This document shows positions 5,095 to 21,611 of a stretch of 22,525 bases of DNA, one piece after another. Below the pieces are notes generated by a model. It did not search any database, had not been told where the DNA came from, and worked only from the letters and a program-made list of their open reading frames with translations. Position numbers and translations under genes: made by a program. The stretch covers positions 1-22,525 of the IMG/VR virus record IMGVR_UViG_3300013115_000195; one strand, 5' to 3'. The first letter of the stretch is position 1. The number at the start of each line of letters is the position of its first letter. This DNA comes from a virus.

Positions 5095-6333
5095 TTAATT
5101 GTCTAATTCTTTAAAGTTTTTTCTTACGTGATCGATGTCGTAAAGTTGCCCAACAGTCTCTACTGGATAAGATTGCGATTGCCCCATATACTTGACATTC
5201 AAGGTGACGCTTGGATAGGCGTCGCCGATAAGACGATCTAGGTAATCGTGAAACTTAATTCGATGATTGTGCAAGTTTTTATCACCGCCCGAACCGGTAA
5301 GAGAAACTAGGACTCTAACTTCTTCTGGCAGTGCGCCGTTGTTCTGCTCCCGATGGTTCACAATCATGTTCCACAAGTCTCCACAGATCTGTCTTTTTGT
5401 GCCGTTTGCTTTTCCACTGTGTCTCTTGACGATAACCTTGTTAGAGTTTACGGACTCCTTCTCTTCTGATTCCATCTTAATCATTTCTGCATCAGAATAT
5501 GAATACGCTGCTTTTTGTTCTTGATAGCACCAACTATTAAACACATTCGTAATACACTTTGTTGCATATTCCTCGGACCAACGATATCCACTATCTTTGA
5601 TAACATCTGGAAGCAAAAAATCAACGATTTTAGTTCTCAACCTACCTCGCTGACTCTTCAGTGATCTTCTAGTAGAATTGTCAATCCTTTGATCTTCAAG
5701 TTGGCGGTTAATCTGATTGACAGCGGCAATCTCGTCTTGCAAGACGCCAGAACCTGTTGTTAGCGCAGAAGCAATGCCATTCTTAATTGCTGCCTCACTG
5801 TTTGGTTCTCCGTTGTCTGGATGAGAATTTAGTTGTCTCAAATATCTGTTCTTCTCATATCTTGTTTTAAGTGACATGAAATCCCTATCCAATATTGCTG
5901 GAAAATAAGTAAGATTTGTCAGAGGAAGCATTGCGTCCCTGTTGAATCCTCCTATGCCCTCTAGAATATGGGTTACGTTGTTCAAATTATTGTATGGTAT
6001 GAGATTTAGGGGGGTTCTAATTCCAAACTCTAATTTTCCACGCTCATTAAGTACACCCTGATTCGCTTGAGCGGCAAACTGTTTGACCTTCGCATGATTG
6101 ATTGTATCAGGGCGCACCTGATACTTTGACCTTTGCTTATTGTAGACCTGCTCACCTACCTTCACAGCGATTAATCCTTCAATGTGTTCTTTGTGGTTTG
6201 AATCAAACATTTCTGGTTTAAATGCATTGCTTTCTTTACAACACTGCTTGATTCTCTCAGGCGTGTTGCAGTACTCAATAATCTGCTGAAACACGTCCTT
6301 GGTTTGTGGAAAATCCACTACGTTGTGAGGCAT
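5095..6333 (-). CDS. Unrecognised 412-aa protein with its own strong promoter
   Basis: I do not recognise this protein. It is soluble-looking with no signal peptide or membrane segment. There are scattered cysteines but no clear metal site (CC at 31-32 is isolated). Residues of about 210-240 are rich in Gln, Arg and Asp and probably form a coiled or helical stretch (VNQINRQLEDQRIDN). The C-terminal third has a Gly-rich turn SLTGSGGDKN and a predicted alpha/beta character. The ATG at 6333 has AAAGGAGGG 6 bases upstream, and a consensus promoter lies 32-60 bases before it. Being placed between thymidine kinase and SSB and driven by a strong promoter suggests an early function in DNA replication or host takeover. 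That is inference from position only. Confidence 0.85.
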   Translation of the reverse strand: MPHNVVDFPQTKDVFQQIIEYCNTPERIKQCCKESNAFKPEMFDSNHKEHIEGLIAVKVGEQVYNKQRSKYQVRPDTINHAKVKQFAAQANQGVLNERGKLEFGIRTPLNLIPYNNLNNVTHILEGIGGFNRDAMLPLTNLTYFPAILDRDFMSLKTRYEKNRYLRQLNSHPDNGEPNSEAAIKNGIASALTTGSGVLQDEIAAVNQINRQLEDQRIDNSTRRSLKSQRGRLRTKIVDFLLPDVIKDSGYRWSEEYATKCITNVFNSWCYQEQKAAYSYSDAEMIKMESEEKESVNSNKVIVKRHSGKANGTKRQICGDLWNMIVNHREQNNGALPEEVRVLVSLTGSGGDKNLHNHRIKFHDYLDRLIGDAYPSVTLNVKYMGQSQSYPVETVGQLYDIDHVRKNFKELDN

Positions 6334-6364
6334 TTGGGCCCTCCTTTTCTTTTATTGTTTTTAT

Positions 6365-6393
6365 ACTATACTAAATGTTTATTTGCTTGTCAA
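6365..6393 (-). promoter_or_regulatory. Sigma-70 promoter for the 412-aa gene
   Basis: TTGACA (6393-6388), 17-base spacer, TATAGT (6370-6365). The -35 hexamer lies inside the last codons of thymidine kinase (the codons for Leu-Thr-Ser-Lys). The predicted start is near 6358, giving a short leader of about 25 bases. Spacer and flank are nearly identical to the SSB promoter, whereas the third promoter of the window shares only the two hexamers. Confidence 0.88.
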
Positions 6394-6933
6394 CTGTTTT
6401 TTGTAATGTTTGAAACATCTTGGTTCATACATTTCTGAACCGCCAATTAATAACTCTCTGTCGTCCTCAAACTTTCTAAAAGTGAAGTAAGCATCTCTAC
6501 CACACTTAGAGCAGACTGATGGACACTTCACCACGTTCGTTGCCCAGGGCATCATCTTTGACACTTCCTTAAAAGGTTCTGCCTTTGAGGATAGGTCCAG
6601 ACTCGATACTAACACAGAGACACCTGACTTGTAAAGACTTATTGCAACATTACTTACACCTTTTATCATAAACGCTTCGTCGATGGCAACCACTTCGGCG
6701 GGACTCTCCTTTAGATGTCGGAGAATGTCTGCTCCAGACGTAACGCAATGCGCATCGATGCGTCCACCGTTGTGAGTCACTATCTCTCCAGCAGAGTACC
6801 TGTCGTCGATCATTGGTTTAAATGCCAGGATCTTCTTTCCTTGATATTTGTATCTTTCCAGTGCTGCAATAAGTCTTGTTGTCTTTGATCCGAACATTGG
6901 ACCAACAAACATGACTAGGTCAGGGTTTTTCAA
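6379..6933 (-). CDS. tk: Thymidine kinase (type II, zinc-containing)
   Basis: Phosphorylates thymidine to dTMP with ATP, feeding the dTTP pool. The 184-aa protein has a P-loop GPMFGSKTT at 11-19, which differs from the usual GPMFSGKT by an exchange of Ser and Gly before the Lys. A DRYSA segment lies at 44-48, the catalytic DEA at 85-87 (E86 in the position of the general base), and a C-terminal zinc site C141-x2-C144 with C173-x2-H176 next to the lasso (IGGSEMYEPRC). The start is a TTG at 6933 preceded by GAGAG 6 bases upstream. An ATG seven codons in has no ribosome binding site and would remove part of the first strand. It follows the FtsZ-like gene by 12 bases, and its 3' end holds the next promoter's -35 box. 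Confidence 0.88.
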   Translation of the reverse strand: MKNPDLVMFVGPMFGSKTTRLIAALERYKYQGKKILAFKPMIDDRYSAGEIVTHNGGRIDAHCVTSGADILRHLKESPAEVVAIDEAFMIKGVSNVAISLYKSGVSVLVSSLDLSSKAEPFKEVSKMMPWATNVVKCPSVCSKCGRDAYFTFRKFEDDRELLIGGSEMYEPRCFKHYKKQLTSK

Positions 6934-6945
6934 CTTAATCTCTCT

Positions 6946-7782
6946 TTAAAAATCTTGTACTTTTGAAGAATATGTCTTTATATAACAAAAATCTGTCTCA
7001 TACTGAGTCTCGTAGACTCCGTAACTGTACTTGCACAGTTCTTCGTTTTTGTCTTTAATTAATTTTATAATATTTCTCTGCAGATTTTTGTCTTCTGCTA
7101 AACTTTGTTGAGAAATACCGTAATAAAGTCTGGTGTCCATTTTGTTTGTCAAGGGATACAGCAAACTTTCTTTTCCCTCTTTCATATCTAAAACTCCCAG
7201 AGTGCAAACTCTCCTAGAATCGTTTACTATCGAAAAGTTACTCACCTCTGCATCCTGGTGGTCAAACACCATAACCATGTGGAAAACAGAAGCGATCAAA
7301 CTGTTGATTGCAGGGTAATACTCTTTTATACTCGCATCTTCAACCAGTGTGTCCATTTCAGAGTTGCTTGTCAAGTATATGTTTTTAAATATGCCTGACC
7401 TAGTATACTCCTGCATTATAGAGAATACCATCCTTTCATGCATCAACTGTTTTTCGTCAAGAAGGTCTAACTCTGGTCTAACGCAGACAACTGTAATTTC
7501 TTTGTCTCTAATTTGATACAAAAACTTGAGTGCAATAGACGAAACAAAACTCGAACCGCTAAGTACAAAGATTACCTTATCTTTTATCTTGTCTTTCAGT
7601 CTTTTCGGTATTGTCTTGAAAGATTCTTCGTACTCTTCTGGGGTTTCTTTCTTTTTTACAACCAGTTTATCTTTCCACTCAACAGAGGAATCATCTACGC
7701 AAATAACATTGTACTGAGAGTATTTGTCGAACTGCATGGCAACGCGGCATCCGACACCGCCTAATCCTATTACTGTATACAT
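6946..7782 (-). CDS. Putative divergent FtsZ/tubulin-superfamily protein
   Basis: By eye the order of elements matches FtsZ/tubulin. There is a Rossmann glycine loop VIGLGGVGCRVA at 4-15. Strand two ends in VICVDDSS at 26-33, where FtsZ has NTD. IFVLSGSSFVSSIAL at 71-85 lies where FtsZ has FVTAGMGGGTGTGA. ITVVCVRP at 96-103 resembles the FtsZ strand TVAVVTRP, followed by a helix and IYLTSN at 135-140 where FtsZ has VIPN. After a central helix comes a C-terminal alpha/beta half. The tubulin signature GGGTGTG is degenerate, so GTP binding may be altered or lost. Another Rossmann or ThiF-like protein is the main alternative. The ATG overlaps the polymerase stop by one base (TAATG) with GAGG 5 bases upstream. 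It lies between polymerase and thymidine kinase, so it is likely an early gene. The coding region is certain; the fold is a hypothesis. Confidence 0.45.
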   Translation of the reverse strand: MYTVIGLGGVGCRVAMQFDKYSQYNVICVDDSSVEWKDKLVVKKKETPEEYEESFKTIPKRLKDKIKDKVIFVLSGSSFVSSIALKFLYQIRDKEITVVCVRPELDLLDEKQLMHERMVFSIMQEYTRSGIFKNIYLTSNSEMDTLVEDASIKEYYPAINSLIASVFHMVMVFDHQDAEVSNFSIVNDSRRVCTLGVLDMKEGKESLLYPLTNKMDTRLYYGISQQSLAEDKNLQRNIIKLIKDKNEELCKYSYGVYETQYETDFCYIKTYSSKVQDF

Positions 7783-8900
7783 TAAACCTCTTTCATTTCC
7801 CCAAAGTTTTTACCGATACCAGAGTTGACAACGTACTTTCCAAACCTAGTGTCTGCAAATATACTCTTCGCCTCCAAAAACTTTTCTTTATCTTCTTTAG
7901 CAAAATCCAGTATAACAGAGTCGTGAAGCAAATAACAGATTTTTGTTCTAAATCCTTTAAAAAAATCTCTCAACTTATATGCCTGCTCGATGCAGACATC
8001 ACTGCTCGTGCTTTGAACAATATAGTTTAGTGCCCTTCTTTCATCAGTTTCAATATATCGCAAAAAGGGGGTCTTTACGCCGTCTTTGTGACGATAGTTA
8101 TCTTTGACCCAATCCCTGTTGTAAAGTCTCTCCAGCAGAGGATCTCGCGCTTCAGGGTTATATAACCAGGCGAAAGTTCGCTTCTTCATCTCCTCTCGGG
8201 TGATCTCGTCAGATGTCTGTTGCATATTCCATTCATGAATGTCGTTCAATGGTTGTTCCTTGCCCGAAAGTGCAAGGAGTGTACGCAACTCTGCAGCGTT
8301 GAAGTCAAATTCGACAAAGAGGTCATTCGATGGTTCCAAAGAGGATCTGTCTTCCCTTTTCATGGTCAGGATAGGTATACCAGACTTCTTGTTGGACAAC
8401 CTGCCTGTCCTCGTTCCAAAGATACTATAATTTGTGTTCTTCAGTTCCCCATTGTAAAGGTTGCTCTTGGCATTCATCTCTTCTGTTAGGATGTGTGCCT
8501 TTTTGAGTACATCGTAGTGCGCTGGCTTTCGAATATTCTCAAATGCATGCTTTATAATGTTTCCTTTGTCCTTTAGAAAGTCAAGCAAAATATCGGAAGG
8601 TATATAATCATATATACAGTGATCCTGCAGGTTACATTTCGATGTAACGACAGATTTCATGATTGCGGAAATTCTTCCCGAGGTACACTTCCAAGAATCA
8701 AGAATGAAAATCGGGCAGACCGATTCTATCTCCCCATCTGAGGTGTACAAATATGCATAGTCCACATCGTCCCTATCTGAGAGGTGATCTGTGTGCCTCC
8801 ACGTCTTATTGAGTTCTGGTAGATTTTGGAAATCTGCCAAATCACCAGAGACGTACATTTTCAAGCACTTCTTGTTATTGTCAATTATCTGAAAATACAT
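7782..8900 (-). CDS. Compact family A DNA polymerase (Pol I/T7-type palm and fingers, no exonuclease domain)
   Basis: Template-directed DNA synthesis, probably the phage replicase. Motifs: TGRLS at 165-169; motif A FVEFDFNAAELRTLLALSG with catalytic D199 and E204; motif B on the O helix with R235, K239, F243 and Y247 in exact Pol I spacing (R754, K758, F762, Y766); NYIVQSTSSD at 292-301 (Pol I QGTAAD); motif C LLHDSV with H326 and catalytic D327. F243 corresponds to Pol I Phe762. At 372 aa it is far shorter than Klenow (about 605) or T7 polymerase (704). The first 150 residues show no DxE/DEDD proofreading motifs. The start overlaps the upstream stop (TAATG) and has no clear Shine-Dalgarno, suggesting coupling. 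A promoter at 8984-9012 lies inside the upstream gene. Confidence 0.9.
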   Translation of the reverse strand: MYFQIIDNNKKCLKMYVSGDLADFQNLPELNKTWRHTDHLSDRDDVDYAYLYTSDGEIESVCPIFILDSWKCTSGRISAIMKSVVTSKCNLQDHCIYDYIPSDILLDFLKDKGNIIKHAFENIRKPAHYDVLKKAHILTEEMNAKSNLYNGELKNTNYSIFGTRTGRLSNKKSGIPILTMKREDRSSLEPSNDLFVEFDFNAAELRTLLALSGKEQPLNDIHEWNMQQTSDEITREEMKKRTFAWLYNPEARDPLLERLYNRDWVKDNYRHKDGVKTPFLRYIETDERRALNYIVQSTSSDVCIEQAYKLRDFFKGFRTKICYLLHDSVILDFAKEDKEKFLEAKSIFADTRFGKYVVNSGIGKNFGEMKEV

Positions 8901-13411: not shown

Positions 13412-13747
13412 CTACCCCCTCACATAATCGTATATTAATTCCCAATTGATCGGAATATAGATGGTGTCACCAATGTCAAGGTGTGCTTCGGTTGGCGCAA
13501 GATTGAAACTTGCTATGATCCACCACAATTCTGGATCGCCATAATACCTGTCTGCAAACTTAAAGTATTTATCGCCAATTTGCCATATGGCAAGTTCATA
13601 ACTTACATTCTTTCTCAAATCGTCTGGTAGGGTTATGAACTTTGGTGTTGCGAACTGTGTTATTCTCTTTGTCCCCCTATTCTTTAACGTGTTGTGATAC
13701 ATCTTGTGACTATTAATAACCATGGTTCTGTTTGAATATCTACTCAT
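13412..13747 (-). CDS. Baseplate wedge protein, gp53/LysM-like
   Basis: A 111-aa protein of the type that joins baseplate wedges or hub in T4-like phages. The pattern GDKYFKFADRYYGDPELWWIIASFN at about 57-81 is the hallmark of the gp53/LysM-like baseplate family (an xxLAxxYYGDPxLWWxIAxxN core). It is followed by LDIGDTIYIPI, corresponding to the LysM G-x-x-I-x-I-P turn. T4 gp53 is longer (about 196 aa), so this is a minimal version. The ATG overlaps the preceding stop (ATGA), with only a weak purine stretch upstream, and its own stop lies 2 bases before the large structural protein. The position between tape measure and hub genes fits a baseplate role. Confidence 0.78.
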   Translation of the reverse strand: MSRYSNRTMVINSHKMYHNTLKNRGTKRITQFATPKFITLPDDLRKNVSYELAIWQIGDKYFKFADRYYGDPELWWIIASFNLAPTEAHLDIGDTIYIPINWELIYDYVRG

Positions 13748-14688
13748 TTCTTATCTGCCTTTGGCGCGTTGGCCTTATCTATTTTATCATTGACTGCAGA
13801 TTTATTTACTTGTGTTTGTTTATTTTGTTTATTGTTTCGTTTCGAATTCTTTGCGGAGGTCGACACGGAAACTTGATTGCCAGTGCCGCCTCTGGTCCTT
13901 TTCAGTGGTGAATTATTCACTGCTGCGGATCCTCGCTTGACATCATGGAGAACGCCGCCTTGCGACTCATACCCATAGGGATATCCCGTTGCGTGGCCAC
14001 CTAACCACTTCTTTGCACCACTCCACCCGAGAGAGTGTTCATGAACAACAACAAAAGACATATTAACCTCAAACACTTTAGGGACAAAAGTATGACTCTT
14101 GTTTGTGGTTTGCCTTTCGTGTGCGTCGTTTGTCCTATTATAAGACTTTACATCATTTGCGCTCATTGCTGGTGACATGTGATGAAACCCAGCTTCTAGA
14201 TTGGGGGTGAAATCAACATTCTCCATCCATCCAGAAAGTCCACCCTTTAACACGCTTACTGCGTTTTGTTCTTGTCTTGCATCCTTGACAAAGTTTGCAA
14301 ACTTCATTTTAAGTAACGGATAAGCGTTCATTACATTATGTCCGCCATTAGAACTGTAGGATGGATACAAAAACCCTATCAAATGCTCCAATTGGTGCAT
14401 GTTGGCGTATCCCTCTTCGGGTGTAAAGGATGGAATACTCAACGATAATGAGATTCTCCTTGTAGTGTTATTCCAAGATCCAATTGGATCAGCGCGGCCG
14501 AAGACATTCTGCGTGTTCCACTGACTTGTAAAGTTCTCATTAAAACTGGTTAACCAAGCTGGAAACACACACGCCTTACCAGTTGCGATGTGCATAATTT
14601 CTATACTAAACCCAGCTTCTTCAAATCTCGACAATATCGGATCTGTGTGTTTTGCATCGACTGACCAGAATCCATCACCACCTGCCAT
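13744..14688 (-). CDS. Tail/baseplate structural protein, function uncertain
   Basis: A 314-aa protein placed between tape measure and gp53-like genes. The core contains FGRADPIGSWNNTTRRISLSLSIPS at about 63-87, then a helix and LIGFLYPSYSS. I recognise this pattern (G-R-x-D-P-I, N-T-x-R-x-I-S-L) from uncharacterised virion proteins of environmental myophages, possibly related to tail-tube-initiator or baseplate-cap proteins, but this is memory and not a search. The last 50 residues are low complexity, rich in Lys, Asn, Gln and Ser, with no acidic cluster until the last few residues. The start has AAAGAGG 7 bases upstream and lies one base after the previous stop. The stop overlaps the next gene (ATGA). 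Confidence 0.6.
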   Translation of the reverse strand: MAGGDGFWSVDAKHTDPILSRFEEAGFSIEIMHIATGKACVFPAWLTSFNENFTSQWNTQNVFGRADPIGSWNNTTRRISLSLSIPSFTPEEGYANMHQLEHLIGFLYPSYSSNGGHNVMNAYPLLKMKFANFVKDARQEQNAVSVLKGGLSGWMENVDFTPNLEAGFHHMSPAMSANDVKSYNRTNDAHERQTTNKSHTFVPKVFEVNMSFVVVHEHSLGWSGAKKWLGGHATGYPYGYESQGGVLHDVKRGSAAVNNSPLKRTRGGTGNQVSVSTSAKNSKRNNKQNKQTQVNKSAVNDKIDKANAPKADKK

Positions 14689-14689
14689 A

Positions 14690-16903
14690 TTATAACCTCT
14701 TTATTGCATTGAGTCCATCGACCACCATTTGACCTGCATCCCTCTCTTTCATAGATAGTTTCAAATCCGACTTTTTTGCTGCGATTTCGGCAACGATCTC
14801 TGTGATACCTTTTATCATCGTGGCCAAGGCGCCGTCTGCTTTAGCAGCATAAAACACATCATTCTTATCAAAAACGGGGGTCATATAATTGCGAGCAATG
14901 TTTGGAGTTGCCATAACTGGTCCCAGTGATTGGGCTGAATTTGAATCCTCAGTTGGGGCAGCTTGGTTTGTCCCTCTCCTCGCAACCGAACTAGCACTGA
15001 ACTGTAAATCCGTACGTGCTTCGTTCTTGCCTGCCTTTACGTTGGATTTGCTTGAACCGCGAACCTTAGTGCCGCCAGGAAGTTTTAAGTTTGCATTGGC
15101 AACTGTTCCTTCCATCCTTTTTTGAATTTCATTCAAATTATCGGGACCTTTTTTGGTGCTGCCTCCTTTTGTTGGCCACTTCTTTTCACGTTCGTCCTGT
15201 ATTCTTTTTTCACGCTCTTCTCCACTGGTACCAGCGAAGCTTGCGCCTGCGCCCATGCCAATAACTGTGCCAATTTGAGCCGCCGAGCCGAGCCCGAAAG
15301 TGTTCATAGCCATACCCATCATTATGCTCGAAAACAGAGCAATGTTATCAGTGAAAAAACTTATCATGCCCACGACGACATTTGTTAACTCCATCAAACC
15401 CTTCTCCCCGCCAATGGCATTGACGAGCATTCTAATCGCCTGCTCCATTGCGGCGTCTATCTTTGTAGCGACTGACAACTGGTCTGCGATCTCTGATTGG
15501 GTTCCTTGCATATCTGTCGCCACTGCATCAAGACCCTCCCTGTCACTCTCTAAAAGATCAGCTTCGGCGTCCATAAACTGCTTCAATTTTGCGACGTCAC
15601 CGCCGAAACCCAATGTTGGTTCTTTTGCAAGTGCTCGCAATTCTCTTGCACTAAGTTCCTTGATCGATCTCCCTTCCTTAGCAAGGGAATCCATGATCAC
15701 TTTTCTCTTTTCTGCTGGAGATTCAGCTGCTAGTAAGGCTTGAGCACTGACAAGAGGAGCACCGAAAGCAATATTGATGCTTTGGGCGAACTTTGCGGCG
15801 CCTTCAAATGTATCCATATTTTCATTCATTTGCAACAACTGGTTAACCTCTATTCCCAGTTTCGCTGCCATAAATGCTGTGTCTTTGAATATCCTGCGGC
15901 CCAGTTCTGCCTCGAACCTGGCCAGAATCGGTTGGGCGTTCTTAAAATCTTGTGCCATCTCTTGTGGAGGGCGCCCCAGTGCTCTGGCTACGCCTGCAAG
16001 GTTGAATAGAAGATCTTTTGCCTGTTCTGGTGTTTGTCCCAGTGCCTTAACTTGAGTTCCAATAATCTGCGCCTGAGTGTCCATAGACACCCCTAGTTTG
16101 CTCAATGTACCTATACCAGCTGTCAATGCAACCAGTTGAGAGTCCTCTCCTGTGGTCAATTCCGAGAACGATAAAAAATTCTCTTTAAGAGAAGATGCAG
16201 CTTCGGCAGCAACTCCTTCGAGATTTGTACCTATTTGACCCATTGCGGCAGCTGCTTCACCAACATTTAACTGCTCTCTAGTGATTTGGGACCTTTGGAA
16301 GAGTGCTGCGCGTGCTTTGTCCATCCGCAACATTGTTTCAAACATTTTAGCGGTAATTGCAACTAGAACGTTTTGCCACTGCATTGTTTCCGCAATACCT
16401 TTGGTGAACCCTTCTAATAGACCTTTGCCTGATAAATTCTCCCAACCTTTTGATAATCCAAAGGTAGCTTGCAACAACCTCTCGGCAGCTGCTTCACCTT
16501 TAGCTAATCCTTTATCGTAGTCTTCTTGAAGTTTGACTATTTTCTTGATTTCTTTATATCTCTTTCTGGCGGTTTCAAGTTCCTTTTCATCTACCTCATC
16601 CTGCGTGACCATAAACTCAATCTTTCTTTTTAGATCATATGCCTCTTGGCCCAAGAGTTCTAGTTTCTTCTTTTCAAGATCGATAACGCCTTCTATCTTA
16701 TCTTTCTGTTCTGATAAGAGTCTATCTATGTCTTGGTATCTTTTTGAAAGTTCTTCTACACTTACTTTTCGGACATCAACTAATTGATCGCCCATCACTT
16801 CGGTAATTGCCTCAAGTAGTGTTTGGGCAAGTGCTGGATCTATTCTAGAGTTTGCAGCAGCTGCTTTGAGTTGCTCTATAAGTCTTTTACCCTGATCGCT
16901 CAT
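14690..16903 (-). CDS. Tape measure-like tail protein, second copy (737 aa)
   Basis: A long helical protein that probably sets tail length and fills the tail tube. Residues 40-145 are coiled-coil and highly charged; 170-500 are Ala-rich helices; 505-560 form a hydrophobic Gly/Ala/Met segment (VVVGMISFFTDNIALFSSIM) of the kind thought to form a membrane channel during injection; the rest is disordered and polar. It is paralogous to the next upstream gene: NVLVAITAKMFE at 178-189 against NILVAVFTKMFE, LGVSM at 270-274 against LGVSV, LLQMNENMDTFEGAAKFAQ at 356-374 against DLMSLTEDLDTSENALKTA, and KIDAAMEQAI at 481-490 against RIDAAMAELI. The ATG overlaps the previous stop (ATGA), with GGGGGC upstream. 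Which copy measures the tail is unknown. Confidence 0.75.
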   Translation of the reverse strand: MSDQGKRLIEQLKAAAANSRIDPALAQTLLEAITEVMGDQLVDVRKVSVEELSKRYQDIDRLLSEQKDKIEGVIDLEKKKLELLGQEAYDLKRKIEFMVTQDEVDEKELETARKRYKEIKKIVKLQEDYDKGLAKGEAAAERLLQATFGLSKGWENLSGKGLLEGFTKGIAETMQWQNVLVAITAKMFETMLRMDKARAALFQRSQITREQLNVGEAAAAMGQIGTNLEGVAAEAASSLKENFLSFSELTTGEDSQLVALTAGIGTLSKLGVSMDTQAQIIGTQVKALGQTPEQAKDLLFNLAGVARALGRPPQEMAQDFKNAQPILARFEAELGRRIFKDTAFMAAKLGIEVNQLLQMNENMDTFEGAAKFAQSINIAFGAPLVSAQALLAAESPAEKRKVIMDSLAKEGRSIKELSARELRALAKEPTLGFGGDVAKLKQFMDAEADLLESDREGLDAVATDMQGTQSEIADQLSVATKIDAAMEQAIRMLVNAIGGEKGLMELTNVVVGMISFFTDNIALFSSIMMGMAMNTFGLGSAAQIGTVIGMGAGASFAGTSGEEREKRIQDEREKKWPTKGGSTKKGPDNLNEIQKRMEGTVANANLKLPGGTKVRGSSKSNVKAGKNEARTDLQFSASSVARRGTNQAAPTEDSNSAQSLGPVMATPNIARNYMTPVFDKNDVFYAAKADGALATMIKGITEIVAEIAAKKSDLKLSMKERDAGQMVVDGLNAIKRL

Positions 16904-19527
16904 GCACTGCCCCCATTAATGGCATAGACCCTACTTCCAACCTCTAATGAGACTGAAGGGTCTATGTCTCTTAGTTTAATTAGACCTTTCCGTAAATTAT
17001 CTAACTGCTCCAAAAGCACGCCGTCATGTTTTGAGTTCTCAAACTTTGCCTTCTTCATCGGAACTGGACTCATGGCAGTTAAGGTATCCTCGAACCCCAT
17101 CAATTGTGATTGTGTCATCTCTTCAGCAACAAACTCCCCTTTTGCTCTTGCGATATCCTTCGGGGACATGCCAGACTTCTTCATGTGCTGTTCATCCAAC
17201 TTCAATTTCATACTTCCGTCTTCAATCCCCATCTTTACAAACATCGGAACAAGGACGTTGTCGGCGAAGGCGTGCCCAATACTAGACGAAGCGAGCAATC
17301 GACCAATGTAACTTCCCAGGAGACCACCTGCCATATAAGCAAGAGGTGTCAAGGCGACACCGAGACCAGGAGCAACATTTGCTAGTTGCACAATCCAACC
17401 GCCTGCCATGCCACCCAACCATCCGCCGAGAGCACCTGCAACTGCCTCTAGTACCCCTCTGGCTTTACCTTTCACATCCAAAGTATCATCATTCAGAACC
17501 ATTGCAGACTCACCTATTGCAAAAAGGGTTTCAACAATTGGGTACTTAGCGAGGGCAGCGAGCATTTTGCTGTTTGCTAATGCTTCACCCAACTTTGATC
17601 CATATTTAGCAAGAAGTCCACCGCCCGATTTCGCTCCCGCTTCGACTGCTTCGCCTGCAACAGTAGCTCCTATACTTGATGCTGCGCCTTTCGCGACATC
17701 ATCAATACCACCTGCGGCCGATCCGGCTACCGAAGATGCGGCTTGAGTGGCTGCCTCGACGCACCCTGCTGCGCCTTTTGCTGTACCTGCTGCCCTTGCT
17801 GCGGCGAGCTGAGCCTTAAGTGTACCAATTTGTAACTTCATCCTTGGTATTCGCACGAAGTTATCGAATTTTGATTTCATGTATGCTGCGCTAACTGCCA
17901 TCCCTGCCAAGGCAAGTGCTGGTATAGTTATCTTGGCATGCCTGGCCAAGAATCCGACCGTTTTGGCAATAGCTGGCATGTGCTTGTTGATCTGGTTGTT
18001 AAGTTTTTGGATCAGTTCTGCCATTGCAGCATCGATTCGCTTGCTTTGGTCTAGTGTTTTTTCTGTATCCTTCTTAATCTCTTCATCCGTTGCTGCTTCG
18101 TCTAGATTAGCTACCTTAGCATCAAAATCTGCGAATTGCCCTCTAACTATCTTTTGAAAGTTTTCTGCACTCACCCCTGCAGACCCAAGATAACCCTGCA
18201 TTGCGCGTTGAACGCGTTGATGTGGTACCCCGAACTGTGCTTCTGCTCTCTGATATGCTTCTGCAATCAATCTCACCTTGCCAGATGCATCTGCAGCAAG
18301 AAGGGCAACCCCATTAACAAAAGATCCGCCCAATAATGAATTTAGTTTGGCAGCTGTCTTCAGGGCGTTTTCTGATGTGTCCAAATCTTCAGTTAAAGAC
18401 ATCAAATCTTCGATCTTTACATTTGTTGCTCTCGCTGTTGCGGCAAGTCTAGCAAACATTTGCGGTGCACGTTTCCCGAATCGAGCATATGTTGGTAAAG
18501 TTTTAGCAAAGGACCCAAGAGACTCTTTCTGAGTCATCCCATAGTCTTTGCCCATCTTATAAAGGGCCCTTACTGTATGGTCCATCTCTTCGGCATCCAT
18601 CCCGATACCCTTTGACATGGCTTGGTATGAACTCCCCATTGCCGTAACAGACACTCCAAGGGATTTTAACCTACCAGACATATTGGCCATTCTAACGATC
18701 TCTCCAGAGTCTCTAAAATCCTTAAAAACCTTCATCTCGCTTTGAAGATCCGCTAATATTTCACCAGCAGCTGCTGGAGACCCAGGACCATACACTGATG
18801 CCAACTCTTGGCCAATATCCATCATCTCTGTTGTGAGTCCCGACAATCCAGTCTTCTGATACAGTTTTGCTCTTGCTTCATCTACTGCCTTAGCTTGTTC
18901 AAACATTTTCGTAAACACAGCAACCAGGATATTTGATGAGTTGACGGTTTTCTTGAGTCCTTTCCCAAATCCCTTGATCGAACCAATAATGCCGTCTGGG
19001 CCTGAAAAGGAATTACTAACGCCGAGGACTGACTGGGTCATCTTTACTGCTATGGATTCGCCTTTTGCTAGCGACTTCAACATGCTGTCATTTTCGTCTA
19101 TTTCTTGCTTTAACAGTTTGTACTTTTCTTGTGCTCTTTTGGCAGCTTCTGTGTTCAACTCTCCAGCTATAGCATATTCTTCTATTTTGCTCTTTATTTT
19201 AGACATTTGAGATTGTGCGATCTGCTTCTTTACTTCGGAAGCCTCTTGAGTATCCCACTCCAGATATTTGCCCGCTTTTTCACTATATTCTTTATCTTTC
19301 TTGAATTTCTCTAAGAGATTTCTGAAGTATTCACCTGATGATGTACCTCCAGTGGTGCCTCCAGATTTTCTTGATAGTATCTTTTCGTATTCGGATATTA
19401 AATCACTCAATAGAGCTTGATCAGAATCGGAAATCTCAGGAGAGGTTCCGTCGCCAGGGTTGTACTCACCCCCTTGTTCGAATTTCTTAAATAATTCTTT
19501 TAATTTTTGAGGGTTTATGAATGCCAT
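16900..19527 (-). CDS. Tape measure-like tail protein, first copy (875 aa)
   Basis: The larger of the tandem tape measure-like proteins. The N-terminal 170 residues are charged helices with a Gly/Ser/Thr linker near 55-65. Residues 195-510 are the module shared with the downstream paralogue (NILVAVFTKMFE at 199-210, ARFGKRAPQMFARLAATAR at 348-366). Residues 530-760 are Ala/Gly-rich with several hydrophobic stretches (ITIPALALAGMAVSAAYM; GGWLGGMAGGWIVQLANVAP), consistent with membrane insertion at ejection. The position after tail tube and assembly-type genes is the usual place of a tape measure gene. The ATG at 19527 has TAGGGGA 8 bases upstream. The summed length of both copies exceeds that of T4 gp29 (590 aa). 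The pair might act together or one might be a hub-side plug. Confidence 0.78.
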   Translation of the reverse strand: MAFINPQKLKELFKKFEQGGEYNPGDGTSPEISDSDQALLSDLISEYEKILSRKSGGTTGGTSSGEYFRNLLEKFKKDKEYSEKAGKYLEWDTQEASEVKKQIAQSQMSKIKSKIEEYAIAGELNTEAAKRAQEKYKLLKQEIDENDSMLKSLAKGESIAVKMTQSVLGVSNSFSGPDGIIGSIKGFGKGLKKTVNSSNILVAVFTKMFEQAKAVDEARAKLYQKTGLSGLTTEMMDIGQELASVYGPGSPAAAGEILADLQSEMKVFKDFRDSGEIVRMANMSGRLKSLGVSVTAMGSSYQAMSKGIGMDAEEMDHTVRALYKMGKDYGMTQKESLGSFAKTLPTYARFGKRAPQMFARLAATARATNVKIEDLMSLTEDLDTSENALKTAAKLNSLLGGSFVNGVALLAADASGKVRLIAEAYQRAEAQFGVPHQRVQRAMQGYLGSAGVSAENFQKIVRGQFADFDAKVANLDEAATDEEIKKDTEKTLDQSKRIDAAMAELIQKLNNQINKHMPAIAKTVGFLARHAKITIPALALAGMAVSAAYMKSKFDNFVRIPRMKLQIGTLKAQLAAARAAGTAKGAAGCVEAATQAASSVAGSAAGGIDDVAKGAASSIGATVAGEAVEAGAKSGGGLLAKYGSKLGEALANSKMLAALAKYPIVETLFAIGESAMVLNDDTLDVKGKARGVLEAVAGALGGWLGGMAGGWIVQLANVAPGLGVALTPLAYMAGGLLGSYIGRLLASSSIGHAFADNVLVPMFVKMGIEDGSMKLKLDEQHMKKSGMSPKDIARAKGEFVAEEMTQSQLMGFEDTLTAMSPVPMKKAKFENSKHDGVLLEQLDNLRKGLIKLRDIDPSVSLEVGSRVYAINGGSA

Positions 19528-19538
19528 TTAGAAGTCCC

Positions 19539-19847
19539 CTACTTAAAAGGCCAAACTAAACCCGTATCTCTTTCAAAAGATTTGATTGACCTATCTAACT
19601 TGAATTTGTCTTTAAACGTCTTTGGATTGTTTAAACCATATTGAGACAAAGAAGAGAGGTACCTTTTTTCGCCTGCAAGCGTCCTGACAAAGGAATCCAC
19701 CTGTGCTGGTGATCCTTTAACAGATACAGGAAAATATTCACCCGTAAATAGAGCGTCCAAGACCATTCTCAACCTTGCGCCCATAGCGACCAAAAAACTT
19801 TCGTCGATCTTTGTGAAGTCTATTACAATTGGTTCTTTCTTATTCAT
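19539..19847 (-). CDS. Small conserved-looking protein upstream of tape measure gene
   Basis: A 102-aa protein with no assigned function. The features are a beta-like start (EPIVIDFTKID), then a basic block GSPAQVDSFVRTLAGEKRY and a strongly patterned C-terminus (YGLNNPKTFKDKFKLDRSI, then FERDTGLVWPFK). I believe this NPKT/FERxTGxxWPFK ending recurs in environmental phage genes next to tape measure genes, but could not check. I chose ATG 19847 because GGAG lies 6 bases upstream. The in-frame ATG at 19859 has no ribosome binding site and would overlap that GGAG. Its location between tail tube and tape measure suggests a tail assembly or structural role. Confidence 0.72.
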   Translation of the reverse strand: MNKKEPIVIDFTKIDESFLVAMGARLRMVLDALFTGEYFPVSVKGSPAQVDSFVRTLAGEKRYLSSLSQYGLNNPKTFKDKFKLDRSIKSFERDTGLVWPFK

Positions 19848-19899
19848 AAACGTCTCCATTAGTAATTAGTTTGGCAAGTCAAAAGAGGATATTGTTTGT

Positions 19900-20061
19900 T
19901 TATTTCTTGATCTTTTCAGCTTCCTTGTTCCTTTCTTCAAAGTACTTGGAGAGTCTTTCCACAAACCACCTTCTAATGGTTATAGGTAGGTCATAAACAT
20001 CGAAATAGTTCCAATTACCGTGCTGAACTAGATAAAATATCTGTTCGTGCACATGTAACAT
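19900..20061 (-). CDS. 53-codon ORF downstream of and overlapping the gp26-like gene; candidate frameshift extension
   Basis: The ORF has the compact motif HGNWNYFDVYDLPITIRRWF and a Lys/Glu-rich end, a plausible small tail assembly protein. Its reading frame stays open well into the end of the upstream gene (to 20142), with frame +1 relative to it. ATG 20061 lies 4 bases after the upstream stop but has no Shine-Dalgarno site nearby. It may be made by reinitiation after that stop, or as a fusion through a frameshift at the T7 run (20086-20080), giving a 343 or 344-aa product. Both are inference. The small size and lack of other homology clues limit certainty, but the motif and position argue for a real product. 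Confidence 0.6.
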   Translation of the reverse strand: MLHVHEQIFYLVQHGNWNYFDVYDLPITIRRWFVERLSKYFEERNKEAEKIKK

Positions 20062-20065
20062 ATAA

Positions 20066-20932
20066 TCAGAGGTCAGGCCAAAAAAACGTCGCCTCCAGGG
20101 GTACCTCCGTTTCGGCTTCGGCACCGCAATACATACACTCAAAATCTTCCTTGAGTCTTACAGTTGGAACAAGGGAAGCATAGTTCTTTCTCAAGAACCT
20201 AGAATCTCTCGCTGGCATTTCACCTATCATCTCATTCAAATCAGCTGGGTTTGCGATTTCGTCAATAGATACAATGATCATCTTTAAGAAGTCCGTCGTA
20301 TTGGTTTCTGCCAACTTGTTCTTCTTCTTTGATGACATTCTACTGGCCATCCTAGATTCATCCCTAGACGTCAACAACCTAACAACAACATTTTGCCCTG
20401 ACATAGGGAGAGTTGTCTCGAAGTGCCCTTGATGATTTGTCTTAAAATTCTCTGACTGTTCAAACTTCTCAAAATACTTATGATATTCTGATAGGTCAAC
20501 TGTGATGTCACAGTCTGTATTGCACTCTGGGCAGGTTATCTTTACTTCATAATCAGGCCCATACCCTGTTACTCTTGCAGCGACCATAATTGCTGACTTA
20601 TCACCGATAAGCAGATCTGCTACCTGAATGCTTTGATCGACCATAATGTTCTGAATGAACTTATCAATTGCCACTCCCTTTCTTAAAAGAGCGGGAGATG
20701 TTAAGATATCTTCATCCCTGGCTGTCATGAATCTAATCTCAACTGTCTCTTGACCGTGGAGAGGGTGATTCTGTGGATAAAACAGACCCCTAGACGGCAG
20801 TTCGACGAATTCGGTGTTTGCCGTTCTTCTTACTGCTTGTACTGGGGGTTGTGGACTTTGTAACTCCTCTGGAGCTGTTTGTTTTTTGGCAGGAGGCGCT
20901 TTGCGCGCCATCCTGTTCGAATTTCTACTCAT
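20066..20932 (-). CDS. Baseplate hub/tail assembly protein, T4 gp26-like (T4_baseplate family)
   Basis: A 288-aa protein likely used in tail or baseplate assembly. After a basic, disordered start it has FVELPSRGLFYPQNHPL at about 42-58 and RFMTARDEDILTSPALLRKG at 67-86, the signature of the T4_baseplate/gp26 family. Two Cys pairs, CPECNTDC at about 134-141 and CMYC near 268-271, look like a zinc-binding site. The C-terminal half repeats the theme of the first (VVRLLTSRDESRMA against EIRFMTARDEDILT), suggesting an internal duplication or strand pairing. The ATG has GAGG 6 bases upstream. The gene lies between the tail tube and tape measure genes, the usual slot of tail assembly chaperones in long-tailed phages, and overlaps the next frame at its end. 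Confidence 0.75.
   Translation of the reverse strand: MSRNSNRMARKAPPAKKQTAPEELQSPQPPVQAVRRTANTEFVELPSRGLFYPQNHPLHGQETVEIRFMTARDEDILTSPALLRKGVAIDKFIQNIMVDQSIQVADLLIGDKSAIMVAARVTGYGPDYEVKITCPECNTDCDITVDLSEYHKYFEKFEQSENFKTNHQGHFETTLPMSGQNVVVRLLTSRDESRMASRMSSKKKNKLAETNTTDFLKMIIVSIDEIANPADLNEMIGEMPARDSRFLRKNYASLVPTVRLKEDFECMYCGAEAETEVPLEATFFWPDL
20080..20096 (-). other. Candidate programmed frameshift site (GGAGG plus T7)
   Basis: Near the 3' end of the gp26-like gene the minus strand reads GGAGG (20096-20092), five bases, then seven T (20086-20080). The zero frame reads ACG TTT TTT TGG CCT GAC CTC TGA. A +1 or -2 slip on the T run enters the open frame of the 53-codon ORF; a -1 slip would stop after two codons. 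A Shine-Dalgarno-like element close upstream of a slippery run is a known stimulator of frameshifting. Proof needs protein data, and a T7 run can occur by chance. Confidence 0.35.
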
Positions 20933-20984: not shown

Positions 20985-21611
20985 TTAAACTCCTGGTGCT
21001 AATCCAGTAAGTCCTGCCTGTGCGCCTTGCCCAGACTGTTGAACCTGACGAAGTGCGCCCTTATCTGAAACGCCCTTAGTATCAAGTCCTGCCCAATCAA
21101 ATCTCATCGTAAGTTCAACGTTTACAAGATCGTCAGACTCATAATCAAGATCACCAAAGTTAACACTCTTAATCCAAGGATTATATAGAGACCAGGTCTC
21201 GATCGGAGATCCATTCTCATCAATCGTGTGAATATACACTCTACCACCCACTGCGCTTGTTGCCTGCTTCTTAGAGAAGGTAACAATATTGCTCGCCTTA
21301 CCTCTACCCAGAGGGTCATTCAAGAAGTTGTGCGGTGCAACGTAACCAGACAATTCAATCAAGTCCAACATGGTCTTTGATGCATCTGGATCAACTGGAT
21401 CAACAAGAGTCATACTGATCTCTTCCCACTCCAATCTCCCAGGGTAATAAAACTTATAGTTAATAAAACTATGCTCAGACTCCGATACCGAAAAATTGGG
21501 TTTACCCGTTGTCTTCACGATCCACTGCGGGATACCATTAAACGATAACAAAAATCTGTATTTTCTCTTTGGCTCAATTGAAGCATCTGACCAAAATTTC
21601 TGACTTGCCAT
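20985..21611 (-). CDS. Tail tube protein, T4 gp19-like
   Basis: Forms the inner tube of the contractile tail, in hexameric rings inside the sheath. The 208-aa length is close to T4 gp19 (163) with an added tail. The N-terminal RKYRFLLSFNGIP and the long strand pattern YKFYYPGRLEWEEISMTLVDPVDP at 52-75 are typical of gp19 relatives. WSLYNPWIKSVNFGDLDYESDDLVNVELTMRFDWA at about 140-174 forms the conserved closing sheet. The C-terminus is Gln/Gly-rich and flexible. The ATG has a strong TAGGAGG 8-9 bases upstream. It follows the tail sheath gene directly, the usual gp18-gp19 order. A 17-base palindrome lies in the gap upstream. Confidence 0.9.
   Translation of the reverse strand: MASQKFWSDASIEPKRKYRFLLSFNGIPQWIVKTTGKPNFSVSESEHSFINYKFYYPGRLEWEEISMTLVDPVDPDASKTMLDLIELSGYVAPHNFLNDPLGRGKASNIVTFSKKQATSAVGGRVYIHTIDENGSPIETWSLYNPWIKSVNFGDLDYESDDLVNVELTMRFDWAGLDTKGVSDKGALRQVQQSGQGAQAGLTGLAPGV

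Follow-up and report, generated by a model that had tools for sequence, protein, structure and literature searches.

The window, a stretch of 22,525 nucleotides (positions 1 to 22,525 of IMG/VR virus record IMGVR_UViG_3300013115_000195), contains two adjoining open reading frames, named here TMP1 and TMP2, within a run of tail genes (Table 1). The coordinates of the original prediction are exact for both frames, and both lie on the minus strand.

Table 1 Features of the tape measure locus and its surroundings, in order of position in the window.
Feature	Position	Strand	Basis
314-residue protein encoded immediately behind the tape measure gene(s) of every relative; tube initiator (gp48/gp54-like) by position only	13744..14688	-	Synteny
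TMP2, putative second tape measure paralogue, 737 aa	14690..16903	-	Open frame; Foldseek (annotated and TP901-core tape measures); member of TMP2 clade
TMP2 residues 672-737, conserved C-terminal motif NYxxPVFNKxDxFYAAKxxGAx...	14693..14890	-	Homology to TMP1 motif; model
TMP2 residues 520-561, 42-residue uncharged linker stretch	15221..15346	-	
TMP2 residues 91-497, shared module	15413..16633	-	blastp; AlphaFold core pLDDT ~80-94
TMP1-TMP2 junction, ATGA stop/start overlap	16900..16903	-	
TMP1, putative first tape measure paralogue, 875 aa	16900..19527	-	Open frame; TMP2 homology; Foldseek; member of TMP1 clade
TMP1 residues 819-873, conserved C-terminal motif (a helix followed by a beta hairpin in the prediction)	16909..17073	-	hhalign against TMP2 C-terminus, E=1.4e-5; model
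TMP1 residues 695-742, 48-residue uncharged Ala/Gly-rich linker stretch	17302..17445	-	Lineage-variable, tied to neither copy
TMP1 residues 111-513, shared module (last part of the N-terminal coil, and the helical core)	17989..19197	-	blastp; AlphaFold core pLDDT ~80-90
ORF beside TMP1, single copy in pair-bearing genomes	19539..19859	-	Synteny
T4_baseplate (gp26/gp51) family protein	20066..20932	-	PF12322, E=1e-11
Tail tube protein (gp19-like)	20985..21611	-	phrog_4542, E=8.9e-26; 33% identity to Rhodothermus phage RM378, E=2e-19

Judged from gene content and order, the neighbourhood is a T4-like tail operon. The conserved order is sheath, tube, gp26/51, an overlapping ORF, a gene for 106 residues, the tape measure gene or genes, the 314-residue protein, a gp53-like protein (phrog_7145, 2.6e-8), and a 1137-residue protein that is hub-like by position. 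In pairs and singles alike, the tape measure slot lies between the tube and chaperone-like genes on one side and the genes in the tube-initiator position and for the baseplate on the other. No sequence similarity is detected between the 314-residue protein and T4 gp48 or gp54. The tube and baseplate genes are related to those of the RM378 group and on these grounds the phage is a far-T4-like myovirus; its capsid genes lie outside the window.

The T4_baseplate-family gene carries TTT TTT TGG CCT just ahead of its stop codon, and a small ORF (19900-20142, minus strand) runs in the +1 (equivalent to -2) frame, the two frames merging at the T7 run; the same arrangement is present at the same place in about 45 loci. 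Among genes with two Phe codons at the frame-merging site, 37 of 41 use TTT-TTT, compared with 75% TTT elsewhere in the gene. The site looks like a programmed frameshift that would turn a gp26/gp51-family protein into a tail chaperone similar to lambda G/GT. Tail tube genes are duplicated side by side in three related contigs (L044, 3292-4534; L051, 6983-8081; L058, 2671-3831), another tail gene duplication in the group, and three others have two adjacent homologues of the 314-residue gene (L053, 9593-11298; L054, 11648-13381; L055, 14278-15920), which recalls the T4 gp48-gp54 pair. In Microcystis phage Mel-JY01 (L014, 20017-26784), the homologue of the 314-residue gene is very largely expanded, to 2255 residues, and adjoins a 1348-residue tape measure gene.

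Homology and identity of the two proteins

TMP1 and TMP2 share the named sequence motifs in the same order, as originally noted: ILVAVFTKMFE/VLVAITAKMFE, LGVS, DTSENALKTA/DTFEGAAKFA, and IDAAM (TMP1/TMP2). The blastp alignment of the shared modules spans 420 columns at E=1e-30, and 28% of the residues are identical. A profile-profile comparison, the check proposed with the original prediction, extends over 437 columns (E=4e-51). The sharing of a module is therefore borne out, and its length, first put at about 300 residues, is really about 410 residues by blastp and 437 columns by profile-profile comparison. The copies had also been described as differing at their ends. On the contrary, comparison of sub-profiles shows that the N-terminal regions, which comprise the coil, are homologous (E=1.1e-12), as are the C-terminal motifs (E=1.4e-5). 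Since the N-terminal and C-terminal parts are paralogous too, the module is part of a near full-length paralogy interrupted only by the linker between the core and the C-terminus, the one part that has diverged.

The Smith-Waterman score of TMP1 against TMP2 is 381, which is reached by none of 900 controls. The maxima are 143 for 300 local shuffles, 86 for 300 full shuffles, and 171 for 300 permutations of 28-residue blocks, and the reversed sequence scores 74. Because all controls stay below 381, composition and heptads do not account for the similarity, and chance or coiled-coil composition is ruled out as its source. A single gene split by a frameshift is likewise ruled out, as an N-terminus, a core, and a C-terminus are present in both ORFs.

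The AlphaFold models have overall pLDDT values of 63.1 (TMP1) and 65.8 (TMP2), with cores at about 80-94 and linkers mostly below 50. The C-terminal ends differ in predicted structure, being a beta hairpin in TMP1 and a helix in TMP2. Searched against viral predicted structures with Foldseek (E<=0.001), TMP1 has 88 matches and TMP2 has 97, many of them annotated as tape measure or TP901; the annotated tape measures match both proteins at E values of 1e-6 to 1e-5. Neither protein has a match above cut-off in Pfam or PHROGs; PF10145 aligns with TMP1 at E=9e-4 and 12.8 bits, under its cut-off of 33.2. Among solved structures (PDB), there is no meaningful match by sequence and none by fold at E<=0.001. 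The Mel-JY01 tape measure is a remote homologue, matching tape measure PHROGs at 1.8e-9 and the TMP2 profile at 7e-62. The predicted structures show that the products of the two genes are tape measure proteins with the common TP901-type fold, and we are highly confident that TMP1 and TMP2 are two retained tape measure paralogues.

Among the tape measures compared, the N-terminal part (131-157 residues) and the core (about 350-360 residues) are near-constant in length, and the linker and C-terminal part together take up 204-552 residues. Members of pairs have 695-1048 residues, versus 542-1058 for single-copy genes. By these measures of sequence, each copy taken alone is built like a full tape measure and is as long as one.

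Distribution and origin of the pair

Relatives were collected by scanning IMG/VR with tail-tube and TMP profiles, and the contigs were annotated by profile search. Contigs with 100% identical TMPs represent the window's own virus from several samples and are counted once, and single-copy calls are made only for contigs that continue beyond the first tape measure gene. The tandem pair is complete in five contigs, namely the window, L012, L115 (192 kb), L117 (~86 kb), and L118; TMP1/TMP2 sizes in the four further contigs are 873/740, 1048/960, 718/731, and 705/769 residues. L033 has a partial pair, L119 starts near its TMP2, and six contigs (L030, L032, L133, L135, L136, and L139) stop within or just after TMP1. 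More distant relatives have a single tape measure gene in this slot, followed by the homologue or equivalent of the 314-residue gene, for example L037, L038, L042, L047, L048, L073, L097, L122, and L123. Searches of whole records find two homologous loci and no third in pair records of 146, 121, 192, and ~87 kb, and one locus in single-copy records of 184 and 131 kb; three very distant records are unmatched by the query used. The usual rule of one tape measure gene per genome does not hold in this clade of uncultivated phages.

In L029, TMP1 is split in two by a frameshift (5344-8495). The gene is intact in the near-identical L115/L138 and in L133, and the split is probably an assembly error.

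No close isolate is found among 50,697 phage records by tblastn with both TMPs and two relatives, and no relative is found in GTDB genome contigs, which consequently give no clue to the host.

In a tree of the core (36 sequences, 351 columns, IQ-TREE with a mixture model, rooted on two distant singles), TMP1 and TMP2 form sister clades with supports of 100/100 and 99/97, respectively. The joint clade is supported at 100/99, and all single-copy genes fall outside it. Independently, a tree of the tube and gp26/51 genes places the pair-bearing contigs in one clade (100/100). These trees are most simply explained if a far-T4-like subclade inherited a single tandem duplication from its ancestor and no complete member has since lost a copy. 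The original proposal of two tandem paralogous tape measure-like proteins born of a duplication is thus strongly backed by blastp, profile-profile comparison, the tree, and Foldseek.

Orthologous copies are 42-61% identical between lineages. The dN/dS ratio is 0.04-0.20 for TMP1 in close pairs and 0.115 for TMP2 in one pair with dS near saturation; the comparison of the window with L012 was set aside because dS is saturated. Purifying selection on the copies is evident from these sequence comparisons. The gene order of both copies has been kept while the linker has diverged freely.

Possible modes of action of two tape measures

The mechanism we prefer, and to which we give an even chance, is a two-component (heteromeric) tape measure whose copies are co-assembled in the tail lumen. 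Translation of the neighbouring, almost coupled frames would yield TMP1 and TMP2 in a ratio of about 1:1, and the tail tube would take up both jointly as it grows. The spacing between the two genes lies between about -8 and +6 nt in all six lineages with the junction present, which favours similar amounts. In each copy, the N-terminal coil and the core would sit towards the head, and the C-terminal motif would dock at the hub. Neither copy is shorter than a single-copy relative can be or lacks any of its parts, and for this reason each probably contributes a coil, a core, and a docked motif. The C-termini of known tape measures dock at the hub or spike, as in diffocin (PMC11329794), and both copies likely dock, since both keep the homologous motif. 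Membrane passage would be served, once in each complex, by additional hydrophobic or Ala/Gly segments of the linker, which can occur in either copy. The more specific arrangement in which the two paralogues share the lumen (three of each, for example), each with different linker modules, forming a two-gene assembly and not a homotrimer or homohexamer, is a tentative suggestion that we rate somewhat below even.

Against co-assembly, TMP1 and TMP2 are unequal in length within one genome, and TMP1 of the window lineage is about 150 residues longer than TMP1 of L117 and L118, the TMP2 proteins being about equal. In addition, the C-termini, with their different predicted structures, could have different docking sites, and a lumen with a trimer may lack room for both copies. 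Where the post-core part of one copy is longer, that of the other tends to be longer too (r ~0.83, only four independent lineages, not significant), and this covariation was dropped as evidence for co-assembly.

It is unlikely, although it is the strongest of the alternatives, that only one copy is the tape measure and that the other, while keeping the fold, has become another kind of tail protein, ejected or bound to the hub, such as a pilot protein or plug. The difference in predicted C-terminal structure is in line with such a repurposing, and the C-terminus of TMP2 is nearer to those of the singles (the TMP2 profile matches L037 at 3.8e-5, whereas the TMP1 profile matches none well). However, neither copy has lost the N-terminal coil, the core, the C-terminal motif, or the full length of a ruler, and the two models resemble tape measures to about the same degree.

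A fixed division of labour, with TMP2 as ruler and TMP1 as membrane channel, is slightly less likely still. The idea stems from the original prediction, in which the first protein had a long Ala/Gly membrane-like region and the second a short one. The TMP1 linker is indeed longer and richer in these residues (361 residues, 30% A+G) than the TMP2 linker (240 residues, 23% A+G). The uncharged Ala/Gly-rich stretches that follow the core are of similar size in the two window copies, however, with 48 and 42 residues, and neither is strongly hydrophobic (Kyte-Doolittle <=1.5, cut 1.4). A long uncharged Ala/Gly stretch, the longest of the two copies, together with the longer linker, is present in TMP1 of the window, L012, L115, and L033, as a channel role for TMP1 would have it. 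In L118, by contrast, the stretch is in TMP2 (59 residues) and TMP1 has none longer than 14 residues, and in L117 it is long in neither copy. A copy with a fixed role would not be expected to swap the segment, so the split into ruler and channel is unsupported as proposed; from the sequences compared, a long Ala/Gly segment is a property of the lineage and not of the copy. Moreover, single-copy relatives unite both roles in one protein, which in most of them contains several strongly hydrophobic segments beyond the core; such segments are, if anything, scarcer in the pair clade. The copies may divide their labour in some other way.

We consider it improbable that the copies act in sequence or as alternatives, that is, end to end, giving a summed length, or singly, giving two tail lengths. 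Each copy alone is long enough for a full ruler, as this would require, yet the start/stop coupling suggests that similar amounts are made together, and the homologous C-terminal ends kept by both are not end-to-end adaptors. Last, the notion that the second gene is an assembly artefact, or a duplicate that is recent or decaying and has no function of its own, for which the broken TMP1 of L029 might speak, has a negligible chance and as a general explanation is refuted because both copies are conserved: five contigs carry the pair intact, orthologues hold 42-61% identity across lineages at low dN/dS, and L115 and L133, near-copies of L029, have an intact TMP1.

Relation to known tape measures

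Tape measures are well known, and a single such protein controlling tail length is the textbook rule; their stoichiometry (three or six) and their role in membrane passage are still debated. We find no description of paired or duplicated tape measures in the open-access literature searched, only chaperone pairs, internal repeats, and unrelated uses. Within that literature, a retained tandem pair is apparently undescribed, and similar pairs elsewhere are possible. A survey of far-T4 phages makes no mention of tape measures (PMC4360716).

A clade in which both duplicates are kept is a natural experiment on the parts of a tape measure. It can separate the segments that every subunit requires (N-terminal coil, core, and C-terminal motif) from those that a complex requires only once (the Ala/Gly segment, which is movable).

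The single-copy far-T4-like contigs (L037, L038, L048, L073, L097, L122, and others) share with the pair the homologous core, the neighbours on both sides, and a comparable length, but they have one copy, in which hydrophobic segments beyond the core are in most cases far more numerous. TP901-type tape measures (PhageMin_Tail, PF10145, and relatives) are long helical proteins with the same predicted fold, encoded in the same slot behind tube and chaperone-like genes; here, in contrast, two full-length paralogues adjoin and the sequence is too diverged for Pfam and PHROGs cut-offs.

T4 gp29 is also a tape measure, with its gene between the hub genes and gp48/gp54, but it is one 590-residue protein, the single tape measure of T4, and is listed at three copies (PMC3004832). 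Similarity to gp29 is not detected with a 28-sequence profile (hhalign, probability 0.1, E=0.67), a weak test given the single-sequence target.

Tape measures have been reported as trimers or hexamers that span the lumen (PMC11329794). The diffocin tape measure CD1366 is full-length, spans the tube, and has its C-terminus on the spike (PMC11329794), and is a possible model for the seating of one copy. It differs in being a homotrimer from one gene, whereas the heteromeric reading preferred here would, if true, make the tape measure a two-gene assembly.
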